A stretch of 64,000 bases of DNA from Hymenobacter nivis (GTDB lineage: Bacteria > Bacteroidota > Bacteroidia > Cytophagales > Hymenobacteraceae): positions 1 to 64,000 of the forward strand of contig NZ_RCYZ01000006.1 of assembly GCF_006439025.1 (NCBI RefSeq), written 5' to 3'. Shown here piece after piece: positions 55,165 to 62,157 of this stretch; the first letter of the stretch is position 1; the number at the start of each line of letters is the position of its first letter. The position numbers were made by a program, and so were the translations under genes. The notes beneath the pieces were generated by a model that worked only from the letters and a program-made list of their open reading frames with translations, made no database searches and was not told the origin of the DNA.

Positions 55165-55184
55165 AATTTAGTAGGCATGCCGAA
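55165..55184. promoter_or_regulatory. Putative operator, copy 1
   Basis: AATTTAGTAGGCATGCCGAA is identical at 18 of 20 positions to 62138-62157. Its centre TNGGCATGCCNA is palindromic, as expected for a dimeric repressor such as a TetR-type protein. It lies 39 bases before the start codon of the membrane Fe-S subunit, next to a TACTTTG sequence that could be its -7 element (minus strand). Confidence 0.55.
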
Positions 55185-55232
55185 CAAAGTATGATTAGTA
55201 GGGCCCCCGGTGTATTTTTTTTACTGAAATTC

Positions 55233-55262
55233 TTGCTCCCTTGTTTTGCCTGCTTACCTTTG
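55233..55262 (+). promoter_or_regulatory. Promoter of tRNA-Phe
   Basis: TTG at 55233-55235 and TACCTTTG at 55255-55262 are separated by 19 bases, the canonical Bacteroidota -33/-7 arrangement. The mature tRNA begins 37 bases further on. Confidence 0.72.
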
Positions 55263-55299
55263 CGGTCCCGAAACCAAAGAAAGTTTGGCCCCGGGACCC

Positions 55300-55372
55300 G
55301 GCAACATAGCTCAGTTGGTAGAGCACAGCACTGAAAATGCTGGTGTCGTTGGTTCGATTCCAACTGTTGCCA
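55300..55372 (+). tRNA. tRNA-Phe (GAA)
   Basis: A complete cloverleaf of 73 bases: acceptor stem GGCAACA/TGTTGCC, D arm TAGCTCAGTTGGTAGAGC, anticodon arm CAGCA-CTGAAAA-TGCTG with anticodon GAA at 55333-55335, and T arm with GGTTCGATTCC. The CCA end is not encoded. It has its own promoter and terminator. Confidence 0.98.
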
Positions 55373-55373
55373 C

Positions 55374-55411
55374 GGAAAAAGCCTCTAGCATTGCGCTAGA
55401 GGCTTTTTTTA
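55374..55411 (+). terminator. tRNA-Phe terminator
   Basis: AAAAAGCCTCTAGC pairs with GCTAGAGGCTTTTT around the loop ATTGC, followed by further T residues. It begins 2 bases past the tRNA. Confidence 0.92.
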
Positions 55412-55546
55412 TGCCCGCTAGGGGCCCAAAACCAACTACCCAGGAATGGGCGGGCAGAAAAAAAATACCGTGCCGCAATCCGGCGGGCGCGGCCGTGGCG
55501 TAGGTGGGGTATCAATATCAAACCCCCATTTTAGCTACTTACTCTG

Positions 55547-59503: not shown

Positions 59504-59781
59504 CTACCGAAGGGTGTCGGAATCCATTGGCTAAGAGCGAGCCGAGGAAAAAATAGGGCCCCTGGGGCACTGGCCACGGAAATCTGTAAAACGGAGTGGA
59601 CACTTCGTTTGGCACAGGCTACGTACGGGTTCGGTCGCGGAAACGATGTACCACTCTTTGCAGCACGCGCAAAGCACCTCGGGGTTACGGCTAGGGGCCC
59701 AAAACCAGGGGCCCCGTGGAACTAGCGTCCACGGGGCCCCTATTGCTTCGTATTTGTGCTGTAACTGATTGCCAGGCGCTA
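59504..59781. other. Intergenic region before the AraC gene end
   Basis: About 280 bases between convergent genes. Apart from the hairpin at 59707-59741 only minor imperfect repeats are seen (for example AAACGGAGTG and CACTTCGTTT near 59589-59610). No gene or RNA was recognised. Confidence 0.5.
59707..59741 (-). terminator. Hairpin terminator, AraC gene
   Basis: AGGGGCCCCGTGGA and TCCACGGGGCCCCT make a perfect 14-bp stem with a seven-base loop. On the minus strand it is followed by GGTTTTGGG, fitting termination of the AraC-type gene. Confidence 0.75.
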
Positions 59782-60708
59782 TTAGATGTTCATGGCCGAC
59801 TCGCGGCGGCGCATCTTACCGGCCGGAATGCCGAACATCATCTTGAAGCGGCGGCAGAAATAAGCCGTGTCTTTGTAGCCCACGTCCTTGCCGATTTCGC
59901 GGATGCTCTTCTTGGTAGTGCGCAACAAGAACACCGCGCGCTCCATGCGCTGGTACTCGATGTAATCCTGCGGGTTGATGTTGGTCAGCATTTTGAAGTA
60001 CTGGCCCACGTAGTCCTCGCTCACGTTGGCCACGCCGCTGAGCACCTTATTCGACAAGTCGCCGCCGAGGTGCTCCTTGATGTAGTTGAACAAGTCAATC
60101 AGGCGCGGGTCCTTGAAGTAGGTGCTGTTGGTGGCCAGTTGCTCCACAAACATGTTGTTTTGCAGCACGTAGCGCACCACTTCCACCACTAGGTTCTCAG
60201 TGTAGATGCTGATGAGCCGCTCGCGGCCGGGCAGGTCCTGAATGCTTTCCTCGACCACCTGCTTGATGAGGTTGGCCATTTTCTCGTTCTTGCTGATGAG
60301 GAACGCTGGCACGTCGAGCGAGGCGAAGAAGTTCACCGAGTCGAACACCTTGGCGTCGAAGCTCACGAAGCTGTGGCTCTGCTCCGCGTCGCCGATCAGG
60401 TCGATGTGGTCGTTGGAAGAGAAGAACTTGTCTTTATTGGTAATTAGGTCGTCGTTGGTAATCACGCGGCCGCCCGGCTCGTTGCCGTAACCCACGCGGG
60501 TGGCGCGGCCACCGGGCACAAATAGCATTTCACCTTCCTCTACTACGTGCGAGTCTTCGCCGAAAGAGATGCGGCCTTTGTGCAACAGGATAAGGGTGTT
60601 GCCGACATCATAAGAATTGCGCACGGTAAAGGGCTGCTGGAGCACCAAATTCTTGGACTTGATGTAGCGGACGCCTAACGATTCAATGACTTTATTGTAA
60701 TCTTCCAT
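59782..60708 (-). CDS. AraC-family transcriptional regulator
   Basis: A 308-residue regulator. The N-terminal two-thirds (about 1-195) are a cupin-like sensor with YDVGNTLILLHKGRISFGED and EEGEMLFVPGGRATRVGYG. The C-terminal part has two helix-turn-helix motifs: GVANVSEDYVGQYFKMLTN (about 226-244) and SIREIGKDVGYKDTAYFCRR (about 268-287), then FKMMFGIPAGKMRRRE, typical of AraC/XylS. Ligand and targets are unknown; the adjacent leftward acyl-CoA dehydrogenase gene ends upstream of it. Its codon usage has more A/T than average, like many regulators. Confidence 0.92.
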   Translation of the reverse strand: MEDYNKVIESLGVRYIKSKNLVLQQPFTVRNSYDVGNTLILLHKGRISFGEDSHVVEEGEMLFVPGGRATRVGYGNEPGGRVITNDDLITNKDKFFSSNDHIDLIGDAEQSHSFVSFDAKVFDSVNFFASLDVPAFLISKNEKMANLIKQVVEESIQDLPGRERLISIYTENLVVEVVRYVLQNNMFVEQLATNSTYFKDPRLIDLFNYIKEHLGGDLSNKVLSGVANVSEDYVGQYFKMLTNINPQDYIEYQRMERAVFLLRTTKKSIREIGKDVGYKDTAYFCRRFKMMFGIPAGKMRRRESAMNI

Positions 60709-60812
60709 TTTAAAATATCCTTGTGGGGCGGTTAGTTAGTGTAGTTCTAATGCAAATTCTAGTAAATGATACAATCCGAGTACAATACAACAGATAAACA
60801 GCGAGAAAAACT

Positions 60813-60843
60813 AAAAACCCAGCCTTTTTTTAGCTGGGTTTTG
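60813..60843 (-). terminator. Terminator of the acyl-CoA dehydrogenase gene
   Basis: AAAACCCAGC and GCTGGGTTTT form a 10-bp stem with a loop of T residues; on the minus strand it ends in a T run. It lies 32 bases after the stop codon. Confidence 0.8.
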
Positions 60844-60874
60844 TGCAAATAATCTGAAAATGTGGCAATTCGCC

Positions 60875-62035
60875 CTATTTGAGGATTTCCCGCGAGATTA
60901 CAATTTTCTGAATCTCAGAAGTTCCCTCATAAATCTGGGTGATTTTGGCGTCGCGCATCAGGCGTTCGACGTGGTATTCCTTCACAAAGCCGTAACCGCC
61001 GTGAATTTGCACCGCTTCCACCGCTGCGTCCATTGCTGTTTTCGAGGCGAAGAGTTTTGCCATGGCCCCGGATTTAGCATAATCGGCGTGATTGTCCTTG
61101 TCGGCAGCGGCTTGCAAGCACAGCAGTCGGGCAGCGTCGACGTTGGTGGCCATGTCGGCGAGCTTAAATTGGATTGCTTGGTGCTGGGCAATTGGCACGC
61201 CGAAAGCTTTGCGCTCCTTCGCATACTTCAGGCTTAGCTCCAGGGCCCCCGAGGCAATGCCCAGCGCCTGCGCCGCAATGCCGATGCGCCCCCCGGCCAG
61301 CACCTGCATGGCAAACTTGAAGCCGAAGCCGTCGTCACCAATGCGGTTCTCCTTGGGCACTACCACGTCGGTAAACATCAGCGAACACGTATCGGAGCCC
61401 CGGATGCCGAGCTTGTTTTCCTTGGGGCCCTGGATGAAGCCGGGCATGTCCTTGTCCACAATCAACACGTTGATGCCGCGTGACTTGAGCTCGGGGTGGG
61501 TTTGGGCAATGACGAGGTACACCGAGGCCGTGGTGCCGTTGGTGATCCAGTTCTTGGTGCCGTTGAGCAGGTAGTGGTCGCCTTTGTCTTCGGCGGTGGT
61601 GCGCTGGCTGGTGGCGTCGGAGCCAGCCTCGGGCTCGCTCAGGGCGAAGGCCCCGATGATTTCGCCCGAGCACAGGCGCGGCAGGTACTTCTGCTTCTGC
61701 TCTTCGGTGCCGTACTTCTCCAAGCCCCAGCACACCAGCGAGTTGTTCACGCTCATGATCACCGAGCACGAGGCGTCCACTTTGCTGATTTCCTCCATCG
61801 CCAGCACGTAGCTAACGGTGTCGAGGCCCGAGCCGCCGTAGGTGGGGCTCACCATCATGCCCATGAAGCCGAGCTCGCCCATTTTCTTAACTTGCGCGGC
61901 CGGAAATTTCTGGTGCTCGTCGCGCTCAATCACGCCGGCCCACAGCTCGGACTGGGCAAAGTCGCGGGCTGCGTCGCGCACGGCCAGCTGCTCTTCACTT
62001 AGTTGGTAAATAGAGGAAATGACGTCGGGTAGCAT
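60875..62035 (-). CDS. Acyl-CoA dehydrogenase (short-chain type)
   Basis: A 386-residue flavoenzyme that oxidises acyl-CoA to enoyl-CoA and passes electrons to ETF. Domains: N-terminal helices (1-120), central beta barrel with GAFALSEPEAGSDATSQRTT and KNWITNG, and C-terminal helices with RKAFGVPIAQHQAIQFKLAD. The catalytic base is expected to be the Glu in QIYEGTSEIQKIVISREIL, as in butyryl-CoA and short-chain enzymes. The ATG at 62035 (MLPDVISSIY) is the likely start. It is divergent from fadL, with a putative shared operator between. Confidence 0.95.
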   Translation of the reverse strand: MLPDVISSIYQLSEEQLAVRDAARDFAQSELWAGVIERDEHQKFPAAQVKKMGELGFMGMMVSPTYGGSGLDTVSYVLAMEEISKVDASCSVIMSVNNSLVCWGLEKYGTEEQKQKYLPRLCSGEIIGAFALSEPEAGSDATSQRTTAEDKGDHYLLNGTKNWITNGTTASVYLVIAQTHPELKSRGINVLIVDKDMPGFIQGPKENKLGIRGSDTCSLMFTDVVVPKENRIGDDGFGFKFAMQVLAGGRIGIAAQALGIASGALELSLKYAKERKAFGVPIAQHQAIQFKLADMATNVDAARLLCLQAAADKDNHADYAKSGAMAKLFASKTAMDAAVEAVQIHGGYGFVKEYHVERLMRDAKITQIYEGTSEIQKIVISREILK

Positions 62036-62137
62036 AGCGTGGGCGGCCAAGGGCCAGAAATGGAAATGGATGGATGGGAAAGCTCAAAATTACGCGGTAC
62101 GCCGCCTTTCAGTGGTACTAAGATACAAAATCCGAAT

Positions 62138-62157
62138 AATATAGTAGGCACGCCGAA
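62138..62157. promoter_or_regulatory. Putative operator, copy 2
   Basis: AATATAGTAGGCACGCCGAA, 18 of 20 bases identical to 55165-55184. It sits between the divergent acyl-CoA dehydrogenase (103 bases before its start) and fadL (79 bases before its start), where it could control both. Confidence 0.55.

Follow-up and report, generated by a model that had tools for sequence, protein, structure and literature searches.

Regulators of fatty-acid degradation have been described for several phyla, where FadR-type regulons are run by a GntR-family FadR (Escherichia coli) or by a TetR-family FadR (Thermus and Sulfolobus). To our knowledge, the known regulators of fatty-acid degradation are all GntR or TetR proteins. 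In this work, we have analysed the first 64 kb (hereafter the window) of a 361,654-base contig, NZ_RCYZ01000006.1 (C20 in our numbering), from the 5.44 Mb genome of Hymenobacter nivis, in which two copies of a palindromic motif stand before an iron-sulfur (Fe-S) operon and the transporter gene fadL. Very probably, these two motifs are bound by one shared genetic switch, most likely a MarR-type repressor. In the open-access literature, with most subscription papers and preprints outside the scope, we have found no description of this regulator, of its operator or of fatty-acid degradation control in Bacteroidota; a MarR-run fatty-acid degradation regulon in Bacteroidia would be new.

The predicted regulon resembles the FadR type in that one palindromic operator precedes uptake and oxidation genes, with acyl-coenzyme A (acyl-CoA) as the expected signal. 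It differs in its winged-helix MarR regulator and in the operator core, which reads TATGC-NN-GCATA and, in Hymenobacter, often MGGC-NN-GCCK. Among MarR proteins, CouR, FerC and the related hydroxycinnamate repressors share the fold and the control of catabolic genes; the identity of our regulator in the fold matches is 13–16% to the 5cyv chains and 24% to 6c2s_A. Release by CoA thioesters is a property of CouR and FerC (PMC4737184 and PMC5487221, which, like the other papers below, are cited from excerpts), while here it would be expected by analogy; moreover, their substrates are aromatic, whereas the present sites make up a scattered fatty-acid regulon. FabT of Streptococcus pneumoniae is likewise a MarR-family protein in lipid metabolism (excerpt of PMC5487221), but it controls fatty-acid synthesis and its DNA affinity is raised by acylated acyl carrier protein, while degradation genes are concerned here.

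The palindrome in the window and in the genome

The preliminary description had reported two similar 20-mers in promoter regions of the window. Both are present, at 55165–55184 and 62138–62157, identical at 18 of 20 bases, and each stands upstream of genes. Their joint consensus, with up to 3 mismatches allowed, has only these two matches within the window. The half-palindromic TNGGC core described at first is palindromic indeed, but this understates the symmetry, since the site is actually an 18-bp imperfect palindrome, TAGTMGGC-NN-GCCKAACA; relatives contain perfect palindromes, e.g., TAGTCGGCATGCCGACTA. The 18-bp core of operator 1 lies 43–60 bp ahead of the Fe-S gene, if the start is taken at 55126, and operator 2 lies 77–94 bp ahead of fadL (62236) and 107–124 bp ahead of the divergent acyl-CoA dehydrogenase gene (62035).

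Taken by itself, the motif pair proves little. The window contains 93 direct 20-mer pairs with at least 18/20 identity, so such similarity is not rare, and for this reason we have rejected the bare pair as a proof. If both members must be noncoding, there is one further such pair in the window, under a rough open reading frame mask that placed site 1 within an over-extended frame. The 93 equally similar pairs are what would favour a chance similarity in promoter DNA, and the argument must therefore be carried by the remaining genome and by relatives. There, a GGC-form pattern gives 606 hits in 101 genomes of the genus, compared with 190 for the reversed control (real above control in 89 genomes, equal in 9 and lower in 3), and the motif is conserved before 30/30 fadL and 30/30 etfD orthologues that were chosen by protein only. 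Against these counts, chance is hardly credible; random scatter of the hits and a lack of conservation upstream of orthologues, the two outcomes named beforehand as speaking against a regulon, did not occur.

In the genome of H. nivis, TAGTMGGCRYGCCKAACA with up to 2 mismatches is found at 8 places, and the reversed-pattern control at 2. The 8 places stand before etfD and fadL in the window, fadE (two sites, both on contig C23), a MarR gene, etfB, a GMC oxidoreductase gene and leuA. The MarR gene heads a MarR-fadB-fadA-fadE cluster, with fadD upstream, and its own site lies 37–54 bp ahead of the start codon; the etfB site lies 36–53 bp ahead of its gene, and that of the GMC oxidoreductase 13–30 bp ahead of the listed start. 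That is, at the sequence level, the same 18-bp palindrome stands in the promoter of the regulator as well as before fadE (twice), fadL, etfD, etfB and the GMC oxidoreductase gene. Sites ahead of uptake, acyl-CoA oxidation and ETF genes agree with a fatty-acid degradation regulon, and the combination of uptake, first oxidation and electron transfer proposed from the window is borne out by the sites before etfB, fadE and the regulator with fadB-fadA, and before the orthologues of relatives.

At 3 mismatches, the pattern and the reversed control have the same number of strand hits in this genome (33 vs 33); as this signal is no better than the control, the weaker sites have been left aside. At C5:30438 and C19:206890, the first pattern has 2-mismatch matches that are within genes and have been taken as chance. 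The 2-mismatch site L018 (G000:C1:740749-740766), flanked by leuA (named by eye) and a divergent gene, may be either chance or an extra target. In addition, a GMC oxidoreductase gene bears an operator at its start both in this genome (L010), where an aldehyde dehydrogenase gene is near, and at L180 in the genus. This suggests long-chain alcohols as a further input to the regulon.

Co-occurrence of the palindrome with a MarR-family regulator

The regulator is a protein of 158 residues encoded by the first gene of the MarR-fadB-fadA-fadE cluster (G000:C23:74749-75222). It matches the Pfam MarR profile PF01047 at 45.9 bits (cut-off 24.6; E 5.2e-12), i.e., it has the winged-helix domain. Its AlphaFold model has a mean predicted local distance difference test score (pLDDT) of 86.2, and all 50 PDB matches listed for the model are MarR-type regulators or putatively described as such, including MepR on DNA and CouR with p-coumaroyl-CoA. 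Since many MarR folds match about equally, the fold alone does not point to a CoA ligand. The closest named MarR relative among the matches listed, from which records of this genome itself may be missing, is from Hymenobacter coccineus (97%). A TetR-type regulator had been anticipated at first; the regulator of the cluster is instead a MarR protein, and a TetR identity is ruled out for it by its Pfam and NCBIfam matches, which include no TetR family, the genome itself not having been searched for TetR genes.

For the analysis of conservation, loci were picked by protein, not by motif, and each upstream stretch was scored by its agreement with TRKTMKGCNNGCMKAMYA (16 at most), with base-shuffled copies as the control. 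The MarR promoters, from the best 80 of 581 relatives (Hymenobacter and close genera), score 15 or 16 in 80/80 cases, 78 of them 16, while only 8 of 1600 shuffles reach at least 14. A palindromic operator in the promoter of the regulator itself is thereby predicted from sequence. Its columns average 95% identity, and the 30-bp stretches on either side 52% and 57%. For the best 30 MarR loci of the order, 28 score 15 or 16, namely 24/26 in one set, which was scored with TAGT as the first four consensus letters, and 4/4 in the other. Farther away, other orders of the class contribute 16 MarR loci, of which 14 score at least 13, where the shuffle maxima are 12–14 (50 shuffles each), and one bears the perfect palindrome TACTATGCATGCATAGTA.

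The putative target genes have been treated in the same way, each genus search covering 31 genomes and giving 30 loci. All 30 fadL loci score at least 14, a level reached by 20 of 3000 shuffles. For EtfD, 29/30 loci score at least 13 and 26 at least 14 (12 of 1500 shuffles), and the remaining locus scores 15, which gives 30/30 at 13 or more. Ten of the 30 etfB loci, this genome included, score at least 14 (shuffles 9/1500), with offsets that agree to within 3 bp, and the same proportion, 10/30, is seen for a DUF4442 gene (shuffles 10/1500). The DUF4442 protein, presumably of hotdog fold, is a candidate acyl-CoA thioesterase, and some members of the genus have the site before its gene (L163, L172, L173 and L174). 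Within the loci L273–L352, fadE of Hymenobacter is often preceded by a pair of operators with a spacing of about 68 bp.

Across 148 order genomes, the exact pattern TRKTATGCNNGCMKAMYA has 399 strand hits and its reverse has 3, with symmetric sites counted on both strands. A match to the MarR protein exists in 101 of these 148 genomes; the exact pattern occurs in 85/101 genomes with the protein and in 2/47 without it (Fisher p 7e-22, a value which ignores relatedness and to which the operator of the regulator itself contributes). In a phylum sample of 118 genomes, the MarR protein (E 1e-20) is found in 21, none of them outside the class. Overall, these comparisons show that the palindrome and the regulator are conserved together, both across the order and in further orders of the class.

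These counts also bear on a different reading, in which another regulator, of the TetR type or an unlinked factor, binds the operators of the fatty-acid regulon, with the MarR gene as merely one of its targets. Such a regulator need not be encoded near its sites, and the MarR gene does bear a site itself, like any target. Autoregulation, on the other hand, is common among MarR repressors. Within the cluster that bears the sites, the regulator present is the MarR gene, no TetR family is matched by it, and the pattern follows the presence of this protein as given above, so that we consider another regulator very unlikely.

As for the genes behind the sites, 20 sites from other families of the order were fetched among the matches listed, not at random. 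Twelve of them precede etfBA (2), fadE (3), EtfD (4), MarR (1), fadB (1) and the dehydrogenase of the window (1), and 8 are not assigned to beta-oxidation genes (L405, L406, L410, L416, L418, L419, L420 and L422). The full-score site of L406 precedes a nitronate monooxygenase gene, and that of L410, from the same other family, precedes a look-alike judged by eye. In 20 fetched stretches of the genus, the targets are fadL, fadE, EtfD, MarR, GMC oxidoreductase, etfBA and DUF4442 genes, with L179 and L181 not assigned.

Genes beside the two window sites

The positions of the window features are collected in Table 1. The operon behind operator 1 had been called HdrD/HdrB-like. Its matches to 9ojn_A, a chain annotated 'iron-sulfur-binding reductase', favour a split EtfD instead. 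The best stretch of the first protein, residues 378–456, aligns with residues 401–479 of this chain (E 3.5e-39), and residues 14–229 of the second align with residues 482–703 (E 1.9e-69), i.e., the two window proteins cover consecutive stretches of one chain, with 4Fe-4S and CCG domains homologous to EtfD. The operon looks like a split EtfD, a putative ETF:menaquinone oxidoreductase, encoded here by two genes while 9ojn is one chain of 1042 residues. The accession 9ojn occurs once in the EtfD structure paper (PMC13083937), in which EtfD is described as containing a possible electron wire that would link ETF with menaquinone; beta-oxidation in Mycobacterium tuberculosis requires EtfD (excerpt of PMC8593149). 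An EtfD-like operon makes concrete the link to electron transfer that had been drawn at first. A tRNA-Phe (gaa) gene, at 55300–55373 on the + strand, lies on the opposite side of the etfD operator and is no obvious target.

Table 1 Features of the window that are related to the predicted operators
Feature	Position	Strand	Basis or domain	Remark
Predicted operator 1 (likely MarR site)	55169..55186	+	TAGTAGGCATGCCGAACA, 16/16 scored positions	upstream of the Fe-S (EtfD) operon
Predicted operator 2 (likely MarR site)	62142..62159	+	TAGTAGGCACGCCGAATA, 16/16 scored positions	between fadL and the acyl-CoA dehydrogenase gene
Putative EtfD part 1, 4Fe-4S subunit (HdrC/E-like), 467 aa	53723..55126	-	Fer4 domains	probable controlled gene
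Putative EtfD part 2, CCG-domain (HdrB-like) subunit, 299 aa	52493..53392	-	PF02754	follows part 1 in the operon
fadL-type outer-membrane transporter, 435 aa	62236..63543	+	PF03349, E 3.6e-56; fadL conservation	probable controlled gene
Acyl-CoA dehydrogenase, 386 aa	60875..62035	-		divergent from fadL; possible target with poor conservation of the site
Candidate -7 promoter box of fadL, TACATTTA	62190..62197	+	read directly against the Bacteroidota consensus TAnnTTTG	probable assignment

The site at 62.1 kb had been assigned to both members of the divergent pair, of which fadL holds, while the link to the acyl-CoA dehydrogenase is poorly conserved. Only 4 of the 30 genus orthologues of the latter score at least 14/16, 2 of these 4 via the fadL site, which weakens this gene as the main target of the site. 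It may still be a target, since its orthologue at L413, from another family and split in two open reading frames, has an operator of its own. The dehydrogenase gene of the window is followed by an AraC-type regulator gene with an HTH_18 domain (59782–60708, - strand), and L413 shows the same neighbours, with an AraC protein 67% identical, behind an operator of the same type. Given these neighbours, the AraC-type gene may belong to the fatty-acid control.

Proposed control and its meaning

We have good confidence that the window motifs are operators of the MarR regulator encoded elsewhere in the genome, which would repress the fatty-acid genes and itself and would be released by acyl-CoA. A MarR dimer should bind each palindrome, overlapping the promoter, and without fatty acid the target genes and the MarR gene itself would be repressed. 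When fatty acids are available, FadD would make fatty acyl-CoA, which would enter the MarR pocket and release the protein from DNA; uptake, the oxidation cycle and electron delivery via ETF and EtfD to menaquinone would then be induced together. We infer the release by acyl-CoA from the behaviour of CouR and FerC, whose DNA binding is abolished by CoA thioesters (excerpts of PMC4737184 and PMC5487221).

The overlap with promoters can be judged from TAnnTTTG, the Bacteroidota -7 consensus (excerpt of PMC9723704). The candidate box of fadL, TACATTTA, lies downstream of the operator, and it comes after the operator in many fadL loci of the genus. In many genus etfD loci, TATATTTC, which is near the -7 consensus, begins at the gene-proximal end of the operator; the corresponding stretch of this genome reads TAAATTGC, a poorer -7 match. 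A TACTTTG box beside the etfD operator has been dropped as a promoter argument, as it is not conserved among the genus etfD loci.

These positions also matter for the opposite mode of action, in which the MarR protein activates, or its repression is tightened by an acyl ligand as for FabT. Both modes occur in the MarR family (excerpt of PMC5487221), and the fadL operator, upstream of its candidate -7 box, is where an activator could sit too. The position of TATATTTC at the gene-proximal operator end, however, suits a roadblock, and the catabolic regulators CouR and FerC lose, rather than gain, DNA binding with their CoA thioesters (excerpt of PMC5487221). We therefore regard activation or FabT-like tightening as unlikely, and repression with release by acyl-CoA as the preferred reading.

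On the other hand, several observations weigh against this reading. The direction of control and the acyl-CoA inducer rest on family behaviour and promoter overlap, from which they should be considered as probable, and the consensus was refined on some loci, first seen, that were later scored. As regards the regulator, 16 of the 101 order genomes with the MarR protein are without the exact pattern, and 2 of the 30 order MarR loci (L085 and L094) are without the operator. For the genus EtfD loci, 96 of 1500 shuffles attain a score of at least 13 when the whole 250 bp is shuffled, and 44 of 3000 when the fixed stretch is taken; only 4 of 26 order EtfD loci outside the genus score at least 15 within 300 bp, the site of a further such locus, L423, being just past this reach. 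Sites scoring at least 14 are absent from 20/30 genus loci of etfB and from 20/30 of the DUF4442 gene, this genome among the latter; the 12 fadE loci of Rufibacter, Pontibacter and Adhaeribacter have no sites of at least 15; and the genus orthologues of the dehydrogenase adjoining fadL are mostly without a site.

The operators themselves come in two forms. The MarR promoter has a TATGC half-site in all 80/80 loci, and the TATGC arm is kept at etfB and at etfD of many Hymenobacter, while fadE and fadL commonly have an arm that reads AGGC or CGGC. A difference in affinity between the two forms would be a guess.

Beyond the window, it is conceivable, and we propose it only tentatively, that a single ancient MarR regulator serves at least two orders of Bacteroidia as the acyl-CoA sensor for fatty-acid oxidation, including a dedicated ETF-EtfD line, and that among the operators of Hymenobacter the TATGC form, retained at the regulator's own promoter, has partly given way to the GGC form common at fadL and fadE, possibly setting the order of response. 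In Flavobacterium psychrophilum, strong upregulation of fatty-acid degradation genes by fish mucus and plasma has been reported (excerpt of PMC9723704). With a defined operator and a candidate regulator, a single protein and a single DNA fragment suffice to test the control, and in these bacteria the predicted co-regulation would connect the electron route through EtfD with beta-oxidation.

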